31,452 nt of DNA from a virus. The notes beneath the pieces are model-generated. The model saw only the letters and a list, made by a program, of their open reading frames with translations. It was not told where the DNA came from and searched no databases. The position numbers were made by a program, and so were the translations under genes. The DNA lies in IMG/VR virus record IMGVR_UViG_3300021511_000281, positions 1 to 31,452 of that record. One strand, written 5' to 3'. This document shows positions 14,628 through 31,452 of this stretch, one piece after another; position 1 is the first letter of the stretch; the number at the start of each line of letters is the position of its first letter.

Positions 14628-14996
14628 ATGCCTACCTCCGCCGAAAACCTTCTTGCGATGGGCCTGCAGTCTGTGGGGTTTAACCCCGACGCGCCAGGCT
14701 CCCTGGCCCAATGGATTTATTACACGCCGGAGGGTGAACCTCAAAGCAAAATTCCCGCCGTAGTCGAACCGGTGCGGCGGGATATGCAGGACGGGAAATA
14801 CGTCGAGACACGGAAAATAACCATCCTGCGACGCGATATCGCCGAGCCTCGCGAAAAAGAGCTGTGCGTGATTGACGATGTCGGTTACGCCGTCGAGAAC
14901 ATTGCCGAACAGTCCGGCGTGATAAGCGTGCTGAATATCAAACGAGCCAGGCGGCTCCGCAAGGAACAAGGCAACGCGACGGATAGTTATCGGTAA
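14628..14996 (+). CDS. Head-tail joining / head completion protein (putative)
   Basis: 122 residues, no signal peptide. It has a helical N-terminus (SAENLLAMGLQSV) and a beta-rich middle with ETRKITILRRDIAEPREKELCVIDDVGYAVENIAEQSGVISVLNIKR, the kind of small beta protein seen as neck or completion factors (compare lambda gpFII). Position between capsid and tail genes supports a connector role; no firm family match. Its 3' end (GATAGTTATCGG then TAA) resembles the CAGTTAT/CAGTAAA heptamers, so the stop codon may come from a repeat. No Shine-Dalgarno is obvious; the gene starts 3 nt after the previous stop. Confidence 0.55.
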   Translation: MPTSAENLLAMGLQSVGFNPDAPGSLAQWIYYTPEGEPQSKIPAVVEPVRRDMQDGKYVETRKITILRRDIAEPREKELCVIDDVGYAVENIAEQSGVISVLNIKRARRLRKEQGNATDSYR

Positions 14997-15005
14997 AGGA
15001 AAAAA

Positions 15006-15032
15006 GTAATCAGCTATCAGTAGTCAGTTGTA
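15006..15032 (+). repeat. Heptamer repeat, CAGTAAT family
   Basis: Three to four degenerate 7-bp units (CAGCTAT, CAGTAGT, CAGTTGT) fill the gap between two tail-joining genes. The same family occurs at 20781-20842, inverted at 20892-20920, and at 30271-30305. Confidence 0.8.
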
Positions 15033-15051
15033 GGTAAAGAGAAATAAAAAA

Positions 15052-15582
15052 ATGGCAGTTGAACCTACAGGCATGTTTTCCAAACCTCTGGCCGCTATGG
15101 CCGATCTGCTCGGGGAGTGTGAATCTTTTCAGACATGGGTTGGCGTAGCTGCCCCGGATGTGGGAACCCCGACAGGCAAGACCCAGGCCCTGGGCCGAAT
15201 CCACTATATTGCCTATGAAGACGATGAGAAAGATTCGCAGGACGATTGCCTGGCCAACCGTCCGCTGGCCATTATAGGTTTCGGCTCGGGAGCCTCCGGC
15301 GAGCGACAGACCGAGCCGCCGAGTTTCGATCACAGCCAGACCCTGGAGCTAAGTCTCGAAGCGCCCCAGACCGGCGATAGCGAGCGGGATATTTTTCTCA
15401 ACTACACCAACGCCATCGGCGAAATTGTTGCCGAGATAGAAAGCCTCACGGGCGAGGATGGGCACCTGCTCATCTCCAGCCATCGAATAATTGAAGGCCC
15501 TGGCCGTCCGAGCGACCAGGCCCAGGCCGCCGGCGAGTTACCGGTTATCGGAGCGACATGGGAATTTGAGTGGAGTCAGTGA
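15052..15582 (+). CDS. Minor tail / tail terminator-like protein
   Basis: 176 residues, acidic, no membrane segments. N-terminal helix MFSKPLAAMADLLGECESFQ is followed by beta strands (RPLAIIGFGS, TLELSLEAP) and a long helix (DIFLNYTNAIGEIVAEIESL), then WEFEWSQ at the end. This alpha/beta layout and the place before tail tube genes suit a tail terminator or completion protein (lambda gpU-like role). No certain family match. The start lies after a heptamer repeat, with only a weak ribosome site (AAAGAG). Confidence 0.5.
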   Translation: MAVEPTGMFSKPLAAMADLLGECESFQTWVGVAAPDVGTPTGKTQALGRIHYIAYEDDEKDSQDDCLANRPLAIIGFGSGASGERQTEPPSFDHSQTLELSLEAPQTGDSERDIFLNYTNAIGEIVAEIESLTGEDGHLLISSHRIIEGPGRPSDQAQAAGELPVIGATWEFEWSQ

Positions 15583-15585
15583 TGC

Positions 15586-16080
15586 ATGCTTTATCAAATG
15601 AAATTCACATATGTCGGCACGCCGGATTTACTGCTGGCCGACAAGAAATCCATCACCGGCAAGGGCATGGAACTAATGCTGCTGGAGTGGCACCGAAAGA
15701 CCATGCCCCAGCATTTCAAGTCCGGAGCGGCAAGGAAATATCACTACGTACCCCGAACCAAGAGATACTCAATCCGCAAAAACCGCTACGCCCCTCGCCC
15801 TGCTCCGCTGAGTTATACCGGGGCCATGGCCAAACAAGTCGCCGGGCGAATAAAGATCAAGCGGAGCGATACCAAAAAGAAGGCAAAAGTCCGCGGCACC
15901 ATGTGGGCCAATGTATTCGCGTTTTTACGGCGACGCGGCAGCGAGATGCCCGATCTGCGGGCCGAGCTGACGATTATAAACAACACCGAGCGGGTGGACA
16001 TGGCCCGCTTCATGAAAAGGTACACCACAGCACAGTTCAGAAACAACAGGCGGCGTCAGACCATTACTGTAGGCAAATAG
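15586..16080 (+). CDS. Basic head-tail or tail protein, unknown family
   Basis: 164 residues, very basic (many Arg/Lys: PRTKRYSIRKNRYAPRP, KIKRSDTKKKAKVRG), with a helical middle and MARFMKRYTTAQFRNNRRR near the end. Such basic neck/tail completion proteins are common between connector and tube genes. An alternative ATG at 15598 is possible. A competing open frame at 15570-16088 has Gln/His/Arg-rich, unlikely content and was discarded. The last codons (GTAGGCAAATAG) lie inside a heptamer repeat, so the repeat supplies both C-terminus and stop. Confidence 0.55.
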   Translation: MLYQMKFTYVGTPDLLLADKKSITGKGMELMLLEWHRKTMPQHFKSGAARKYHYVPRTKRYSIRKNRYAPRPAPLSYTGAMAKQVAGRIKIKRSDTKKKAKVRGTMWANVFAFLRRRGSEMPDLRAELTIINNTERVDMARFMKRYTTAQFRNNRRRQTITVGK

Positions 16081-16099
16081 GTAAATAGGCAGGTAGGAG
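16071..16099 (+). repeat. Heptamer repeat, AATAGGC family, spanning a stop codon and a ribosome site
   Basis: Units of AGGCAAAT/AGGTAAAT/AGGCAGGT begin inside the 3' end of the upstream gene, include its TAG stop (16078-16080), and end in TAGGAG (16094-16099), which serves as Shine-Dalgarno for the tail tube gene at 16106. Confidence 0.8.
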
Positions 16100-16105
16100 A
16101 ATATC

Positions 16106-16987
16106 ATGGCAGCTGATAAACGAGACAGAGCACGAATAGCACTGGTAAAGGCAGCATCCCCCACCCTGACAATCGGCGGTATGACGAGTCAGTCGGTCAA
16201 GTCGGAAATAGAATTAAGCTCCGAGGGTGGCGACGGCGTAGATACGACATTCGCCGCGGTCATGTCGGCCAAACACAGCGTCGAGTTCACCACCAGGCAT
16301 ATCGCTACATTTCTGACAGCCTGCGGCATAGACGGCGTAGAGTGCACGACCCTGGAGGCGTGGTACCGCAAGGTCAAGGCATACGGAGCGATGGAAACCA
16401 CCGGCCACCTGAAAGTTTCCTACGCCAAGGGTTTTTTGCTACCCCAGAGCCTCAGTGCATCCCAGGAGGAAATGGCCGAGATACAGGCCAGGGCGATAGC
16501 CATCAGTGCCGATGGGACAGACCCGGTAGATATAGCCACCGGTGCCCAGGCCGTTAATGGTGTGGTGAGCGAGGCGTACACAATAGGCCCCTGCACCATC
16601 AACGGCAACGCCCATGATCTGGAGAGCGGCGAACTGAATTTTGGGCTGGAAGTGGAGAATGAGACCAACGAGGGGGGGGCATATCCAACCCTGGCTTATA
16701 TCACGGCCCGCAAGCCGGTCATCAATCTGACCAGCCGCACAGCTTTCAGCATGACCGACCTGGATTTGATAGGCAAGGAACTGACCAGTTTCACCTGGTA
16801 TTTGCGAAAACTCGACAACCTCGGGCTGCGAGACGGTAACAGCGCCATCAAGATAAGCTGCACCGGTTATGTGCATATCGAGGATTTATCAGGCGACGCG
16901 TCGAAGAAGGCCAACACGAAAATAACCGTAACGCCGGTCAAGGATTCCGGGGCGATTATTACCATCGATCCGGCTTCATCGATTTAA
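16106..16987 (+). CDS. Major tail tube protein (putative)
   Basis: 293 residues, beta-rich with Thr/Ser/Gly, no membrane segments. It starts with a short helix and a beta strand (LTIGGMTSQSVKSEIEL) and includes FTTRHIATFLTACGI, LESGELNFGLEVENE and TKITVTPVKDSGAIITI, typical of tube subunits. Size and position, upstream of the chaperone pair and tape measure, match the lambda gpV place. TAGGAG before the ATG comes from the heptamer repeat; the stop also touches the next repeat. No direct family match is claimed. Confidence 0.65.
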   Translation: MAADKRDRARIALVKAASPTLTIGGMTSQSVKSEIELSSEGGDGVDTTFAAVMSAKHSVEFTTRHIATFLTACGIDGVECTTLEAWYRKVKAYGAMETTGHLKVSYAKGFLLPQSLSASQEEMAEIQARAIAISADGTDPVDIATGAQAVNGVVSEAYTIGPCTINGNAHDLESGELNFGLEVENETNEGGAYPTLAYITARKPVINLTSRTAFSMTDLDLIGKELTSFTWYLRKLDNLGLRDGNSAIKISCTGYVHIEDLSGDASKKANTKITVTPVKDSGAIITIDPASSI

Positions 16988-17023
16988 TAGGCAAATAGGC
17001 AATAGGCAATAGGGAATAGGGAG
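16987..17023 (+). repeat. Heptamer repeat, AATAGGC family, ending in a Shine-Dalgarno
   Basis: Five units (AATAGGC, AAATAGGC, AATAGGC, AATAGGG, AATAGGG) start at the last base of the tail tube stop codon. The last unit runs into GGGAG (17019-17023), spaced 6 bases from the next ATG at 17030. Confidence 0.85.
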
Positions 17024-17029
17024 AAAAAC

Positions 17030-17287
17030 ATGGAACAGAAAATTGTTAACAAAGTGGCGGTTATTGACTCTCACGCGGCGAACCTCAACCAGGCTGCTGG
17101 TGAGTTGGGCGGGATGCTCAACGCCCTGGTGGGTAACCAACAACAAAAGTTTCCTGACCAGGCGGAAGTTTTGCAACGGGTATCCGTTGACCTGGCCACC
17201 TCGGCGTCGGCGATTGAAAAGGCCCTGAAACATCCGGGCATGGCTGTGTCTGGAAAATCCAAAGACCAACCCAATAAAGAGAAATAA
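17030..17287 (+). CDS. Small helical tail-region protein, unknown
   Basis: 85 residues, mostly helical with heptad-like spacing (VIDSHAANLNQAAGELGGML, VLQRVSVDLATSASAIEKAL) and a Lys-rich C-terminus. It lies between the tail tube gene and the frameshift pair and could be a tail assembly factor. No family recognised. The next gene starts 2 nt after its stop, so expression is coupled. Confidence 0.55.
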   Translation: MEQKIVNKVAVIDSHAANLNQAAGELGGMLNALVGNQQQKFPDQAEVLQRVSVDLATSASAIEKALKHPGMAVSGKSKDQPNKEK

Positions 17288-17289
17288 TC

Positions 17290-18048
17290 ATGGCGGGTTT
17301 TTTATATTTCATTCCAGGTCTTTCCGCACCTCCCGATGGCGAGCTAATCAATCGTGGCCTGGCGGCTGTGCTGGGTTTTCGCGATGACGGGCATGTTGCT
17401 CTCGGGCCGTTCCGTGCTATCGATTTAGGCCCCGACGGTGAACGCGGCGTTTTGTTGGCGCCGACGGGCTGTGAGCTGAGTGATTATGACGCCGGGGACC
17501 AGACCTGGTATCCCGCCGGGGAAGACAAAAAATACTGGTTCGGTTTTTCCCAGGAAAATCCGCCCGGCCCGGACGAGCTGGCAAGAGACCGCCAGGTACC
17601 CGGTCAGGCCGTGCGGCTGGGCGACGGCAGACAGTGGCATGTACCGATAGCGAGAAACTGCCCGAGGTCTCGCGGTCTGTCCGCCGAGGGTCAAAAGACG
17701 GACAACCCCCTCACGCAGTATCAAAAACTTTTCGACATGTCTCTGGAAGTGTGGGGTTGCTATGACCTGCTCTCACAACAGGTGCGACTGGGGCAACGCG
17801 GCGAGGAAATTCCCCAGGAAATCACCGACGGCTTGATCGCACCGGATCGCGAGGAGGAAATTCTGGTCGAGTGCCTACGGACGAATTATCGCCTGGGCGA
17901 ATATGAAATACGTGCCCTTGGCCTGCTGAACGAACTGTGCGAGGAAAACATCCTGCGGACGCTTATAGATTTCGACGGTTATTGCCAGCTTGCCCAGGGC
18001 CAGGTAGAGGAGGCAAACAGACATGATGAAAAAAAAAATTCTGCCTGA
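17290..18048 (+). CDS. Tail assembly chaperone, short form (G-like, frameshift donor)
   Basis: 252 residues, soluble. The N-terminal half is Gly/Pro/Asp-rich and beta-like (GFLYFIPGLSAPPDGE); the C-terminal half is helical and acidic (REEEILVECLRTNYRLGEYEIRALGLLNEL). It lies directly before the tape measure gene, where tailed phages carry a pair of chaperone frames joined by programmed frameshifting. The zero frame ends DEKKNSA at TGA 18046-18048, just after a run of ten A, and the -1 frame continues with a convincing 49-residue segment. At 252 residues it is longer than lambda gpG (140), so the role is inferred from position and frameshift layout. Confidence 0.6.
   Translation: MAGFLYFIPGLSAPPDGELINRGLAAVLGFRDDGHVALGPFRAIDLGPDGERGVLLAPTGCELSDYDAGDQTWYPAGEDKKYWFGFSQENPPGPDELARDRQVPGQAVRLGDGRQWHVPIARNCPRSRGLSAEGQKTDNPLTQYQKLFDMSLEVWGCYDLLSQQVRLGQRGEEIPQEITDGLIAPDREEEILVECLRTNYRLGEYEIRALGLLNELCEENILRTLIDFDGYCQLAQGQVEEANRHDEKKNSA
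18029..18038 (+). promoter_or_regulatory. Poly-A slippery site for -1 ribosomal frameshift
   Basis: Ten consecutive A read as GAA AAA AAA AAT in the zero frame, containing A-AAA-AAA, a strong bacterial -1 slippery heptamer. A slip moves ribosomes past the TGA at 18046 into the frame ending at 18185. The site is 7 bases before that stop. Confidence 0.65.
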
Positions 18049-18185
18049 TACCCCACGGCCCGGCCCCATACAAACGGTGGCTTGAATACAGGATGTGGAT
18101 AAACGGGCGAAACCCGGACTACTGGCCGACATGTGCGGATATAGCGATGTGGCTGGAGAACAGTAGCCAGGCAATAGGCAGATAG
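18039..18185 (+). CDS. Tail chaperone -1 frame extension (T-like part of the G-T fusion)
   Basis: In the -1 frame, 48 codons plus the TAG at 18183-18185 encode a segment including PYKRWLEYRMWINGRNPDYW, then ADIAMWLENSS. It is rich in Trp and Tyr and has a helical end, unlike chance translation. The first ~35 codons have no ATG with a ribosome site, so it is best read as the tail of a 298-residue fusion starting at 17290. The last codons (QAIGR, stop) lie in a heptamer repeat. The fusion would match the lambda gpGT design, a minor product needed for tape measure assembly. Confidence 0.6.
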   Translation, partial: FCLIPHGPAPYKRWLEYRMWINGRNPDYWPTCADIAMWLENSSQAIGR

Positions 18186-18204
18186 GCAAGTAGGCAATAG
18201 GGAG
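18168..18204 (+). repeat. Heptamer repeat, AATAGGC family, before the tape measure gene
   Basis: Five degenerate units of AGGCAAT/AGGCAGAT/AGGCAAGT form the end and TAG stop of the frameshift extension. The last (AATAGGGAG) gives GGGAG at 18200-18204, the Shine-Dalgarno for the gene at 18213. Confidence 0.85.
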
Positions 18205-18212
18205 TTTGAAAA

Positions 18213-19892
18213 ATGGCAGGCGGCGGCTCTGGTGGACAGGTTCATGTTACGATGACATCTGACGAGGCGGAGGTATGGTCCTCGCTCCAGAAGATCGCCG
18301 GCGGGTTTCGCAATGTCGAAGCTGCCGGGGGTCGGGCTGCCAATAAGACCAGAAAAGGTTTCAAAAAAACTTCAGGGGCTACCAATGAATTGGCCAGCAG
18401 GCTGGGGATTTCCACGCGGGCATTTACCAGTTGGGGTGCCGCTGGCGTAGCTGCCACAGGAGCTATCGGCGCTGCAGTACTCAAGCTGATGAAAAGGATG
18501 AAGGAGGTCAACGACGAGGTGGACCAGATGTCCCGCACCGCAGCCGAGCAGGTCGGCGGGTCGGGGACTCGGGCATTGGCGGATATTCGGGGAACCAGCC
18601 AGGAAGCGGCCCTGATGAGCACATATCGCAGTGCCGTGAAATATGATGTTTCCCGCGAGACCGCCGAGCAGGCGGCCTTTACTATCGAGTCGGGGCTGAA
18701 AGCCAAAGATGTCGGCGGCCAGGACAACCTGAACAGAATAAAAGGCATGGCCCTGAAAACCTCCAGTCTGACCGGTGCCGGCGGAGACACTACAGGCCGC
18801 CTGGTGTTGACAGCGCGCGAGGCCCTTGGGGCGACAGACCCCAAAGAGTTTGCCAACTTCATGGCCAAGGCTCGGACATATGCCCAACAGTCTATGGTAA
18901 CACTGGAGGAATACGGCGGGATTTTGAACGAGATACTCCCTGAGGCCATCAAGCGGGGAATTGATGTTGACCAGGCCATGGGACAGATCGCGGCGATGAG
19001 TTTCCGCGTGAAAGACCCGCGGAAGGTCAAGACCGCCTATCGCCAGATGATGCGCGGCACGCAAAAAAACTCGACTACCATGCGTAAGGTAGCCAAGGCC
19101 GCGGGGATGGATGTGTCATCCATGGGTTCCACACAGCTTATGGAACTCCAGGGCAAAATGCTGGCCGACGCCGCCTCGGAAGGCCCCCAGGCCCTGGGCA
19201 AGCTAATAAAACAACTTAAACTCCCCGAGGAAATCGCCACTACATACCTGGCCACCACCGACCCGGCCTCGGCTGCCAGGCTGGCGGAACTAAAAAAAGC
19301 GGGGCAAGCGGCAACTGGCGGACAAATAAACCTGGACTGGATCAAAGCCGGTGGGGCGTTGCGAAAGATACGCACATCCAAAACAGCCAAAGAAGCTGCC
19401 AAAATGAAGGAAGGCATTGCCGAGGCTCCCCATGTTGCCTTAACCGACGAGGCGGAAGCCTTTGTTCAAGACGCCATGACCAGCAGCTCTGAAGCCCGGA
19501 ATGCTCGCATCCTCGGTCTGACGAAGGGCAACGCCCGATCTGTAGCCATGCATAATGCCCGGGCAAAACTCGAACAGATTGTCGCCAATAAAAAAATAGA
19601 CCGTGGTCTACGAACCCGCGCATCGGTGGCCCTGGAGGGTTTGGAGGATGGTTTTGGGGTGTCGATGTACGAGACCACCGGTATAGGCCGCCGCGACGAA
19701 ATGAAAGAGGCCGGCCTGGTTATTCAAAAGGCCGGCCATGCCGTGGATTTGATGATCGCCGAGGGTAGGTTGCGTAAAGAACAGGCTGCCCAGACCAATG
19801 AGACCGCCCGGAATTTGAACTCCGCCAGCCGCAATCTGCTGAAAGCTACAGGTGGCACCAACCCCGACGCACATCTTGAGGGGGCACCATAA
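18213..19892 (+). CDS. Tail tape measure protein (short)
   Basis: 559 residues, almost wholly helical, Ala/Lys/Met-rich. It has a Gly-rich start, one hydrophobic segment (GVAATGAIGAAVLKL, about 76-93) and then repeated helices (MKRMKEVNDEVDQMSRTAA, and later TAREALGATDPKEFANFMAKA). Tape measures set tail length at roughly 1.5 angstrom per residue, so this one implies a short siphovirus tail of about 80-85 nm; that figure is a rule-of-thumb estimate. It follows the chaperone frameshift pair and precedes tail tip genes. No peptidase or lysozyme motif was recognised. Confidence 0.8.
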   Translation: MAGGGSGGQVHVTMTSDEAEVWSSLQKIAGGFRNVEAAGGRAANKTRKGFKKTSGATNELASRLGISTRAFTSWGAAGVAATGAIGAAVLKLMKRMKEVNDEVDQMSRTAAEQVGGSGTRALADIRGTSQEAALMSTYRSAVKYDVSRETAEQAAFTIESGLKAKDVGGQDNLNRIKGMALKTSSLTGAGGDTTGRLVLTAREALGATDPKEFANFMAKARTYAQQSMVTLEEYGGILNEILPEAIKRGIDVDQAMGQIAAMSFRVKDPRKVKTAYRQMMRGTQKNSTTMRKVAKAAGMDVSSMGSTQLMELQGKMLADAASEGPQALGKLIKQLKLPEEIATTYLATTDPASAARLAELKKAGQAATGGQINLDWIKAGGALRKIRTSKTAKEAAKMKEGIAEAPHVALTDEAEAFVQDAMTSSSEARNARILGLTKGNARSVAMHNARAKLEQIVANKKIDRGLRTRASVALEGLEDGFGVSMYETTGIGRRDEMKEAGLVIQKAGHAVDLMIAEGRLRKEQAAQTNETARNLNSASRNLLKATGGTNPDAHLEGAP

Positions 19893-20275
19893 TGGCGAGT
19901 ATTGACGGCGTAGATTATCCGATTATGCGAGGTTCGCCTGCCGAGCCTGTCGAGGGGATGGACAACAAAACCCGCCTCGGCGTCGACGGCATGGAAGACC
20001 GCCTTATTGGTCTGCGCTCCGCCGACAGCACGATCGAGACCATATCCACCCATGCCAACGGCAGCGCGGCACAAGCGGCCAAGGAGGCTCAGTCCAGGTT
20101 GGTGGGTACCGTGGCGACCCTCGTAGACTCGTTTGACGTTACGCACCTGGTGATAATCAAAGGCGTCGAGCAGCATGTCCGAGCCATCCTCAACCCGGTA
20201 GGGACGGGAGTGTCCGCGTCGGACACCACCCAGCTACGGACGATCTGGACCCTGCGGAAGGCGGTGGGATTGTAA
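19892..20275 (+). CDS. Minor tail protein, unknown family
   Basis: 127 residues. It begins with a beta-like IDGVDYPIMRG segment, has a helical middle (AQAAKEAQSRLVGTVATLVDSF) and a C-terminal strand-turn region (VIIKGVEQHVRAILNP). It overlaps both neighbours by one nucleotide (TAATG at each end), which binds it to the tail operon. Its place after the tape measure suggests a distal tail component. No further function is visible. Confidence 0.55.
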   Translation: MASIDGVDYPIMRGSPAEPVEGMDNKTRLGVDGMEDRLIGLRSADSTIETISTHANGSAAQAAKEAQSRLVGTVATLVDSFDVTHLVIIKGVEQHVRAILNPVGTGVSASDTTQLRTIWTLRKAVGL

Positions 20276-20793
20276 TGGCTACTGTCAGGGCGAAAACTGC
20301 GAAGGTTTTTTTGCGTTGGGCCGCCGGCCATGGGGTTCCGCTGGGCGGTGGATATTTTGTGTACATGTCAGCGCGGAACGGCGAAATAGATTTTGAAGCC
20401 GACCCGCTGAATGCAAACCCGATCGACGCCTGGCCTGTGGAACTTGCCCCGCACAAAATCGGCGACGGGCTTGGCCCCGACGGCTCCGGCCCGGACGGCT
20501 TCGGCGAGGGCGGCTTCCCCAACGGCGAGGGGCCAGACGGCTATGGCCCCGACGGCTTCGGCACGACCTGGTTCGAATACACCACCGGTGTCCTCGAGGA
20601 CGGCACCTACAAGTTCGCCGTCTGCCCGGTAGACCGGTTCGGCAACATCAACACCGCCGACGCCATTGAGACCGTCATATCGCCCGCCGGCACCCCGCAC
20701 CCGCCAACAGACGCCCAGCCAAAAGCATACGATCTGCCCACCAAGCAACTGACCGTCGAGTGGCAAGCAAACCCGAAAAACAGTCATCAGTAA
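20275..20793 (+). CDS. Tail protein with Gly-Pro-Asp-Gly repeats and fibronectin-like parts
   Basis: 172 residues. The first ~55 residues (FLRWAAGHGVPLGGGYFVYMS) and the part after 100 (EYTTGVLEDGTYKFAVCPVDRFGN) read like a fibronectin III-type beta sandwich interrupted by a 30-residue low-complexity insert of GPDG(F/Y/S)G units. The last residues (NPKNSHQ) and stop are formed by CAGTCAT/CAGTAAA heptamers, so a repeat may have replaced or trimmed the natural end: the sequence breaks off after LTVEWQANP, where such a domain would continue. Confidence 0.55.
   Translation: MATVRAKTAKVFLRWAAGHGVPLGGGYFVYMSARNGEIDFEADPLNANPIDAWPVELAPHKIGDGLGPDGSGPDGFGEGGFPNGEGPDGYGPDGFGTTWFEYTTGVLEDGTYKFAVCPVDRFGNINTADAIETVISPAGTPHPPTDAQPKAYDLPTKQLTVEWQANPKNSHQ
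20473..20562 (+). repeat. In-gene Gly-Pro-Asp-Gly repeat
   Basis: Ninety bases encode about five degenerate GPDGxG hexapeptide units with a broken middle (GEGGFPNGE). The insert sits between two beta-domain halves and is probably an exposed, flexible or ion-binding loop. Confidence 0.7.
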
Positions 20794-20842
20794 AGAAAAG
20801 CAGTTATCAGTAGTCAGTAGTCAGTAATCAGTAATCAGTAAA
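20781..20842 (+). repeat. Heptamer repeat, CAGTAAT family (six clean units plus two in the gene end)
   Basis: Six perfectly phased 7-bp units of form CAGTDRT occupy 20801-20842. Two more (CAGTCAT, CAGTAAA) at 20781-20794 form the C-terminus and stop of the upstream gene. Confidence 0.9.
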
Positions 20843-20891
20843 AGCAGAAACAACAACAAAAGCAACTACGAAAGACGCGAAAGTTTTTTTG

Positions 20892-20920
20892 TTTTTACTG
20901 AAAACTGATTACTGAAAACT
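20892..20920 (-). repeat. Inverted copy of the CAGTAAT repeat, forming a hairpin with 20822-20843
   Basis: Bases 20893-20914 are the reverse complement of 20822-20843 at 19 of 22 positions, enclosing about 49 bases that contain GAAAGACGCGAAAG, a motif also seen in related form near 30.25 kb. The element fills the 148-bp gap before the 20942 gene and could fold in RNA as a terminator-like or stabilising stem. Confidence 0.7.
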
Positions 20921-29770: not shown

Positions 29771-30255
29771 CGTTTCTTTTTCCGCTTCCCGCCCCGGCCA
29801 TAGTTCGTCCAGCCTAGTTTTCGCATCTGCTCGTTGATGGATTGTCGCGGGGCTATTTTAGATTTCGGATTTCGGATTTTGGAATTGTCGCCTGGCCACA
29901 GCGTGCCCAGCAGTCTGCCGTAGTAGCCTCGCTTACGTTTGGCGTTTGGGTAGGTCAGTCTCACCCGCTGGCCAGCCAGGCGTGTCAGGTCGGCCTTGGC
30001 CTGGTCGTAGAGTTCCTCGCCCCGCTCGGGCGCGTAGACCCTCAGCAGCCTCACCCGCTGCCGCAGCACCGCCCCGTCGGCCAGCGGCACGCCAATGTCC
30101 AGCGTGTCGCCATCGACCACCCTCAACACGGCGTAGCAGCCCGGCGGCGGCACATCCACCACCAGGCCACCGGCGCCGACGCCGCCACAGCCCGCAAGCA
30201 GGCAAATAGGGAATAGGCAAATAGGGAATAGGCAATAGGGAATAGTCTTTCGCAT
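29767..30255 (-). CDS. Staphylococcal-nuclease-like lipoprotein
   Basis: 162 residues. The N-terminus is a lipoprotein signal: MRKT, a Leu/Ile/Phe/Cys-rich core, lipobox LLAGC with Cys23. The SNase fold follows from ~40: VVDGDTLDI (46-54, Asp49/50 region), RLLRVYAPE (69-77; Arg69 and Glu77 match SNase Arg35 and Glu43), and YYGRLLGTL with Arg114 in the place of SNase Arg87. The usual calcium-binding Asp40 is Tyr74 here. The tail is very basic (GGKRKKKR). Both the signal peptide (bases 30199-30252) and an internal stretch (NSKIRNPKSKI) are encoded by heptamer repeats. It is minus-strand, between tail and integrase genes, and could be a secreted or membrane-anchored nuclease for superinfection exclusion or DNA scavenging. 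A second, shorter start is not obvious. Confidence 0.75.
   Translation of the reverse strand: MRKTIPYCLFPICLFPICLLAGCGGVGAGGLVVDVPPPGCYAVLRVVDGDTLDIGVPLADGAVLRQRVRLLRVYAPERGEELYDQAKADLTRLAGQRVRLTYPNAKRKRGYYGRLLGTLWPGDNSKIRNPKSKIAPRQSINEQMRKLGWTNYGRGGKRKKKR
29855..29886 (-). repeat. Heptamer repeat, GATTTCG/TCCAAAA family, inside the nuclease gene
   Basis: Units GATTTCG, GATTTCG, GATTTTG on the plus strand. On the coding strand they encode NSKIRNPKSKI between the nuclease core and its C-terminal tail, in frame. The same family lies in the integrase gene at 30479-30512. Confidence 0.8.
30199..30245 (-). repeat. Heptamer repeat, AATAGGC family, encoding a signal peptide
   Basis: About six units of AATAGGG/AATAGGC (one AAATAGGG). 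Read on the minus strand they encode the Pro-Ile-Cys-Leu-Phe repeats of the nuclease's signal peptide, up to the lipobox. Confidence 0.85.
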
Positions 30256-30270: not shown

Positions 30271-30305
30271 CTTTTACTGATTACTGATTACTGATTACTG
30301 ATAAC
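30271..30305 (-). repeat. Heptamer repeat, CAGTAAT family, between integrase and nuclease genes
   Basis: Four phased units of CAGTAAT/CAGTAAA (minus strand) with flanking GAAAGAC motifs. It starts 5 bases after the integrase stop and fills most of the gap to the nuclease start, repeating the gene-junction placement. Confidence 0.85.
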
Positions 30306-30309
30306 TTTT

Positions 30310-31452
30310 CTACCCCAACGCCTTGGCCACCGTCGCGGCTTTCAATAAATCCTGCTCGGCGTAAATCAGCGTCGTATCCACCGACGAATGCCCCAGGGAA
30401 GTCCGCACAAAGTCAGGCTCAAACTGCTGCCTGGCCCGCGTGCCAAACGCGTGTCGCAACTGGTGAGGCGTCCAGGTTTCGATTTCGGTTTTTTGATTTT
30501 TGATTTTGGATTCATTTGCCTTGGCTATCGCCCGGCGGATAGCTCGGGCGTAGGAGTCCTTGTTGTAGTGGTCTGCCAGTTTGCGTTTTTTTTGGTGTCG
30601 TCGCCGTCGTCGAACATCCGGGTCATGGCTGGGCCAGGGCGGCGTCTGTCTGCTTTCTCGCTTGGCAGTGTTGCGAGCGTCTTCGGCCTCGCAGGGCTGG
30701 AAGAGATATTCCCCGCCGTCCGCACGCACCCAGTTTTTCAATATCTCCTGGGCCACCGGGCCGATGGCCACGACTCGTTCGTGCCCATGGTGTTCGGTCT
30801 TGTGGTGTTCGGGCCGATACAGCCAGACCTCGCCTGTCATGTCAATATCGCAGGTTCGCATAATGGTCATCTCGCCGCTCCGCATTCCGGTATGCCACTG
30901 GAGTTGTATCATCGCCCATATTGTCGGCGAGACCCAAGGCTCAATTTGTCGGACGGTTTCCCACCCCACGGGCTGGACGCGTTTGGTTTCCCGTCCACCG
31001 CGTCCGGATCGCAGAGGTCGCAGACATTTCAGCTCAGCCAGTTGTGCCGGTGCCACGAGTCGCTCTTCGGCAGCCCACTCGAACATCTGGCGGATCCGCG
31101 CGATGTGGCGATTGATTGCCTGGCGGACACGGCCCTCGTCGATCATGGCCTGGCGGCACCGCTTGAGTTGCGGTATGCCGAAGTCGGTAACCGGCGTATC
31201 GGCATAGAGACGGGCCACGAGTCTGATAGCGGCAGCCTGGTTGTATACCTCTGGTGTCTTGCGTCCGTTCCTGCGATAGACACGGGAAACTTCCTTGGCG
31301 TAGCCGGCGAGCAATTCCGCCATGGTTGTTACGGATTGCGGAGGCATGTCTTCCCCGGTGGCGAGCCACTCGGCGATACGGCGGTGATATTTAGCCTCAG
31401 CCTGCGGCGTGCCCCATTTTCCGCAATAGTAATCTCGCCCACTGAGTCGCAC
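30310..31452 (-). CDS. Tyrosine recombinase / phage integrase (5' end cut by window edge)
   Basis: At least 380 residues, running off the right edge. The GTG at the edge is probably not the true start; comparable integrases have ~25 more N-terminal residues before SGRDYYCGKWG. A SAM-like core-binding domain (AIRLVARLYADTPVTDF, RQAINRHIARIRQMFEWA) precedes the catalytic domain: first Arg in TGMRSGE (near 30880-30897), HxxR in HQLRHAFG (near 30445-30468), a His in LGHSSVDTT, and the nucleophile Tyr at 30361-30363 (LIYAEQ). It catalyses phage integration and excision. A heptamer repeat lies in frame just before the HxxR box (KIKNQKTEIE), which may be an insertion. The attachment site is not identified. 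Confidence 0.92.
   Translation of the reverse strand: MRLSGRDYYCGKWGTPQAEAKYHRRIAEWLATGEDMPPQSVTTMAELLAGYAKEVSRVYRRNGRKTPEVYNQAAAIRLVARLYADTPVTDFGIPQLKRCRQAMIDEGRVRQAINRHIARIRQMFEWAAEERLVAPAQLAELKCLRPLRSGRGGRETKRVQPVGWETVRQIEPWVSPTIWAMIQLQWHTGMRSGEMTIMRTCDIDMTGEVWLYRPEHHKTEHHGHERVVAIGPVAQEILKNWVRADGGEYLFQPCEAEDARNTAKRESRQTPPWPSHDPDVRRRRRHQKKRKLADHYNKDSYARAIRRAIAKANESKIKNQKTEIETWTPHQLRHAFGTRARQQFEPDFVRTSLGHSSVDTTLIYAEQDLLKAATVAKALG
30479..30512 (-). repeat. Heptamer repeat, TCCAAAA family, inside the integrase gene
   Basis: About four degenerate 7-bp units (AATCCAA, AATCAAA, AATCAAA, AAACCGA on the coding strand) encode ESKIKNQKTEIE, ~15 residues before the HxxR catalytic box. The length keeps the reading frame. 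Confidence 0.75.

Follow-up and report, generated by a model that had tools for sequence, protein, structure and literature searches.

Why do short tandem repeats sit where one tail gene of a phage ends and the next begins, and do they act there on translation? The window analyzed here, a virus record of 31,452 bases taken in full, represents a tailed temperate phage by gene content, with genes for the terminase, portal, head protease, major head protein, and tail; its right end holds a gene for a tyrosine integrase. An earlier note on this DNA had read the repeats as translational punctuation within the operon, supplying stop codons to the upstream genes and Shine–Dalgarno sequences (SDs) to the downstream ones. 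Our analysis suggests a different reading, where the arrays are very probably intergenic heptameric tandem repeats (units of 7 to 8 nt), as found in many bacterial chromosomes, that have expanded between phage genes. The kind of repeat is known and the phage is a new instance of it, indicating that chromosome-type heptamer repeats also occupy the junctions of tailed-phage structural operons. The general rule for such repeats is that sense-oriented arrays start at a stop, and the SD at the array edge is a local coincidence, a distinction that limits claims of translation regulation by these repeats.

Repeat arrays in the window

The repeats are found at five tail-operon junctions and at two sites beside the integrase, and all the positions first noted (15006, 16071, 16987, 18168, 20781, 30199, and 30271) were confirmed and exceed chance. 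AATAGGS occurs 16 times in the window against 6.7 ± 2.6 in shuffled sequences, with 0 of 100 shuffles reaching 16; for CAGTARTCAGT with one mismatch allowed, the count is 11, with 0.48 expected; and exact lag-7 runs number six against 0.12 expected, with a maximum of 2 across 200 simulations. The initial description of two 7-bp families holds for the families, an AATAGGC/G type and a CAGTAAT type, and is too narrow for the unit, as both 7- and 8-nt units occur in the AATAGGC/G type. The two lengths are mixed in the arrays at 18173 and 30205, and the junction at 16071–16100 has a period of 8 with TAGGCAAA-like units. Tandem Repeats Finder (TRF) and lag analysis show that each array repeats a unit of about 7 nt several times in tandem. 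The arrays lie between genes and at most overlap ORF ends, as is characteristic of intergenic heptameric tandem repeats.

Along the plus strand of the operon, a CAGTAAT-type array of three to four degraded units, recognized by its sequence, spans 15006–15033; an AATAGGC-type array of 8-nt TAGGCAAA units spans 16069–16099; five AATAGGC/G units span 16986–17023; and an AATAGGC array of 7- and 8-nt units spans 18168–18204. Beside the integrase, an AATAGGG/C array of 7- and 8-nt units (30199–30247, plus strand) lies past the 3' end of the gene, and a CAGTAAT array in the minus-strand reading (30271–30302) lies 9 nt from that end (30310). Heptamer-like arrays of GATTTCG and TTTTTGA units are also present at 29861–29883 and 30490–30512, the latter within the integrase ORF. 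Elsewhere in the window, a TIR-domain protein (PF13676; 5944–6996) is encoded between a methyltransferase and the structural genes, and is possibly a defense gene.

At the fifth operon junction, a CAGTAAT/CAGTAGT array (20781–20842, plus strand) forms the left arm of a palindrome whose right arm, ACTGAAAACTGATTACTGAAAAC (20892–20920, minus strand), is inverted relative to it. The region from 20781 to 20920 folds at −39.5 kcal/mol (z −4.86). This stem, together with palindromic arrays at many junctions of a second virus record, IMGVR_UViG_3300044824_000335, would suit a role of palindromic arrays as RNA hairpins that serve as terminators or mRNA stabilizers, which we consider unlikely, with a small but appreciable chance of being correct, and which is at odds with the non-palindromic sequence of the remaining operon arrays. 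No terminator-like site was called at 20781–20920.

Stop codons and a probable frameshift gene

It had been proposed that at least four upstream genes end within repeats. Three clearly do, with TAG at 16078–16080 (where the last codons of gene 15586–16080 also lie in the array), TAG at 18183–18185, and TAA at 20791–20793 (again with the last codons of the gene, 20275–20793). The fourth merely touches its array, the TAA at 16985–16987 of gene 16106–16987 having only its last two bases in common with it, and at 15006 the upstream stop (14994–14996) is outside the array.

The gene that ends in the array at 18168 is not ORF 17290–18048 itself, but its probable −1 frameshift extension. A slippery run of ten A residues (18029–18038, plus strand) lies near the end of this ORF, and the −1 frame that follows stays open up to the TAG at 18183–18185, with QAIGR and the stop encoded by the array and the predicted product ending at 18185. 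An A9–A10 run with a similar −1 tail is shared by three distant relatives, namely a syntenic prophage in genome G049 (which also has the best integrase match) and loci L373 and L391, and a G/GT-type frameshift is therefore likely. On the strength of this conservation, gene 17290–18185 is likely a frameshifted, tail-assembly-chaperone-like gene of the G/GT type.

Shine–Dalgarno sequences at the array edges

The observation that the last repeat unit provides the SD in three cases was borne out: AGGAG at 16095–16099 (serving gene 16106), GGGAG at 17019–17023 (ATG at 17030), and GGGAG at 18200–18204 (ATG at 18213) lie 6, 6, and 8 nt from their start codons, respectively. All three sit in AATAGG-type arrays. 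At the CAGTAAT-type junctions at 15006 and 20781, the SDs are weak and not supplied by the array.

These three sites raise the possibility that the arrays are kept in the phage because they provide a stop and an SD, coupling adjacent tail genes. In its fullest form, the AATAGG-type repeat would have become in this phage lineage, by exaptation, a stop-plus-SD module that renews itself, and array slippage could tune tail-gene expression; we assign a low probability to this form, and the simpler retention for stop and SD is likewise improbable. A suitably spaced SD is present in every AATAGG-type operon array (3/3). The duplex energies of these SDs range from −7.1 to −7.8 kcal/mol and exceed in strength the median of −4.7 kcal/mol over 28 other start regions of the phage, a set chosen by eye from the ORF list and including a few uncertain starts. 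However, eight array-free genes among these 28 match or exceed the array-borne SDs, and CAGTAAT-type arrays provide none. That all three AATAGG-type operon arrays carry a well-spaced SD is unusual for the family elsewhere, and could mean a real exaptation. Further evidence bearing on this possibility, as against the expansion of intergenic heptamers that we favor, comes from the placement of arrays in other genomes and from the junctions of related phages.

Array placement in other genomes

Distances from arrays to genes were determined using a simple ORF-based gene caller in mixed genomes, in one Gemmatimonadota genome, and around viral CAGTAAT arrays, and compared with random placement within the same gaps; G049, G007, and the mixed genomes served as stand-ins for the true host. 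For sense arrays, a stop is no more than 20 nt away in 26 of 46 cases in the mixed genomes (8.0 expected), in 12 of 18 in the Gemmatimonadota genome (4.7 expected), and in 25 of 37 for the viral arrays (11.4 expected), the viral counts being non-independent because many come from related contigs. These arrays either overlap the ORF end (9, 9, and 11, respectively) or lie just past the stop without overlap (17, 3, and 14). Some of this preference comes about automatically, given that the units include stops and that an ORF running into an array will by definition end there; in the Gemmatimonadota genome, where just three arrays lie past the stop, overlap accounts for most of the effect.

Within 20 nt upstream of starts, whose positions are approximate in this test, the pattern is reversed: only 1/41 sense arrays in the mixed genomes (5.3 expected), 1/12 in the Gemmatimonadota genome (3.9 expected), and 1/31 among the viral CAGTAAT arrays (6.8 expected) are found there. 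Antisense CAGTAAT arrays, on the other hand, concentrate near starts (13/32 vs. 5.7 expected). The enrichment near stops and starts that the earlier note had proposed to look for thus appears, in these other genomes, at stops, with sense arrays depleted at starts. A genuine stop preference holds generally across these repeat families. Since sense arrays near starts are rarer than random, SD supply is no general property of the repeats, and this depletion also weighs against their retention as ribosome sites. Of the translational punctuation originally suggested, the part concerning stops is therefore retained and the part concerning SDs is not; similarly, the suggestion that repeats insert at stops and persist where they provide ribosome sites is supported in its first half only.

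Equivalent junctions in related phages

The G049 prophage has homologs of the portal, head, 15052, 15586, 16106, 17290, and 19892 proteins, and is array-free at three of the equivalent junctions. There, 15586|16106 is an ATGA overlap, 16106|17290 a 12-nt gap with AGGAGGG, and 17290|18213 a TAATG overlap with GAGGGA, and the SDs are intact and of the GAGG/GGAGG type. The 16106|17290 junction of L373 is also short and array-free. Relatives thus possess syntenic junctions without repeats, in G049 with ordinary SDs, an outcome that the earlier note had itself named as refuting, and that here applies to its claim on SDs. As the array-free junctions of G049 have SDs, SDs are independent of arrays, which also counts against the arrays being kept for this purpose.

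Arrays of other sequences occur in other relatives. L391 has a 7–8-nt array, GATAATTGATAATTGACAATGGATAATGG, unrelated in sequence, at its 16106|17290 equivalent; in the syntenic stretch L391:13060–13209, a GATAATT-type array is followed by GTGGACT-like units. In the phage L378, whose capsid gene is related, arrays of CAGTAGC/CAGTTGC hold the stop, and AGGAG lies outside. Taken together with the array-free relatives, these unrelated arrays indicate that repeats of different sequence arise independently at gene junctions. In 920 kb of head-protein relatives, we found no AATAGG or CAGTAAT arrays, and period 7 stands above periods 4–6 and 8. Close relatives were not found in viral_contigs using the portal, integrase, or 16106 protein, and phage records yielded portal matches below 30% identity only and none for the 16106 protein. 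With no close relatives found that have or lack arrays, array expansion was thus not seen directly.

The same junctions bear on whether the arrays were seeded by the SDs, through slippage from an SD-like AGGG and extension upstream to the stop. Such an origin would be consistent with a last unit that is itself the SD in three cases, and with AGGAGGG and GAGGGA at the G049 equivalents. Across genomes, however, it is the stop and not the start that forms the fixed edge of sense arrays, and CAGTAAT arrays have no SD likeness. We therefore see little prospect for this reading, and as a general origin it is unsupported by array placement across genomes.

Probable expansion of intergenic heptamers, and precedents

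Under the preferred reading, the expansion of intergenic heptameric repeats, the arrays would grow and shrink by slippage where they are least harmful, which in a phage operon may be the short gaps that are its sole non-coding space, and their origin would be the host. Every unit contains TAG or TAA, and a 7-nt period, not being divisible by 3, passes through all frames, so that a stop falls within about 21 nt whichever frame is read. An array reaching the 3' end of a gene would then supply its stop as a mechanical by-product, filtered by selection. The AATAGGG unit is G-rich and SD-like and could merge with an SD. In gaps of 25–40 nt, the necessary SD would fall at the downstream array edge, and selection may keep TAGG(G)AG there.

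Heptamers of this kind have precedents in bacterial chromosomes. MacGregor (2015; PMC4679880) describes intergenic TAACTGA heptamers near starts in marine Beggiatoaceae, proposes a translational role for them, and notes that stop codons within the repeat restrict its placement. Like the present arrays, these have a 7-nt unit, are almost wholly intergenic, lie near gene ends, and in some cases overlap the upstream ORF (PMC4679880). The reverse complement of TAACTGA, CAGTTAT, is one base away from CAGTAAT and is itself present in the window at 20801. However, the TAACTGA repeats are chromosomal and close to starts, and seem to take the place of SDs (PMC4679880); the present arrays are in a phage, and those of the AATAGG type contain an SD. 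With units at least one base different and an SD in the AATAGG-type arrays, the present arrays do not belong to the TAACTGA type.

Rehm et al. (2015; PMC4692102) report GGGAATC and GGGGA(C/T)T heptamers in Xanthomonas and Nostoc. On the coding strand, the GGGAATC-type arrays of that study are found no more than 50 bp from the stop; on the non-coding strand, they are found close to starts. The near-stop rule for sense arrays was thus previously reported for other heptamers; the present arrays share this strand rule, the placement between genes, and the overlap with some stops (PMC4692102). Rehm's repeats differ in sequence, have G-quadruplex potential, and are reported absent from plasmids, while the present arrays are in a phage (PMC4692102). 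The AATAGGC/G and CAGTAAT units, with GG or an occasional GGG, fall outside that G-quadruplex group, which is marked by runs of at least three G. Both PMC4679880 and PMC4692102 cite Mrázek and co-workers for the over-representation of period-7 long simple sequence repeats in prokaryotes and for the proposal of slippage. The 7-nt period is shared with the present arrays; as described in those two papers, theirs is a genome-wide survey with no mention of a phage operon, the setting of the present case.

Distribution and likely host

Relatives of the integrase and the major head protein were found in a search within one group of genomes, which we take to be Planctomycetota from the Thermoguttaceae genome at its center (L116). 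The host is probably a member of this phylum, as judged from these two proteins, whose relatives were sought there only. In G049, a relative of the likely host, nine CAGTAAT pattern matches occur at many sites, in tandem, convergent, and antisense settings and not at ribosome sites; the AATAGGC family had no match in this genome. That family's pattern matches 24 of 392 Planctomycetota genomes. A scan of genomes for three AATAGGS units returned at least 115 stretches, mostly from cyanobacteria among the matches listed, which also include Clostridia, Bacteroidetes, Gemmatimonadota, a planctomycete, and others. A two-unit pattern gave 157 matches in a planctomycete genome and 156 in a Gemmatimonadota genome, and the reversed pattern gave 0. 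That errors in metagenome-contig assembly or sequencing made the arrays is scarcely credible, even with one contig only and no independent copy seen, as unit sequences vary, ORFs are intact across the junctions, and the repeat families recur in isolate genomes. In one Planctomycetota genome (G047, loci L155–L162), AATAGGC arrays often appear as hairpins (AATAGGG...CCCTATTGGCTATT).

Among viral contigs, AATAGGC arrays were found in 18 stretches, with no homologs of the window proteins or CAGTAAT arrays in any of them, and CAGTARTC arrays in 53 stretches. In the record IMGVR_UViG_3300044824_000335 (L215), most junctions of the stretch examined have palindromic CAGTAAT arrays whose spacer is TTTGCCTTT-like. 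This record and the contigs related to it (L184, L203, L206, and L212) are phage-like, share such arrays at most gene junctions and the recurrent TTTGCCTTT spacer, and represent the densest case seen, which makes this group a better subject than the window for the study of these arrays.
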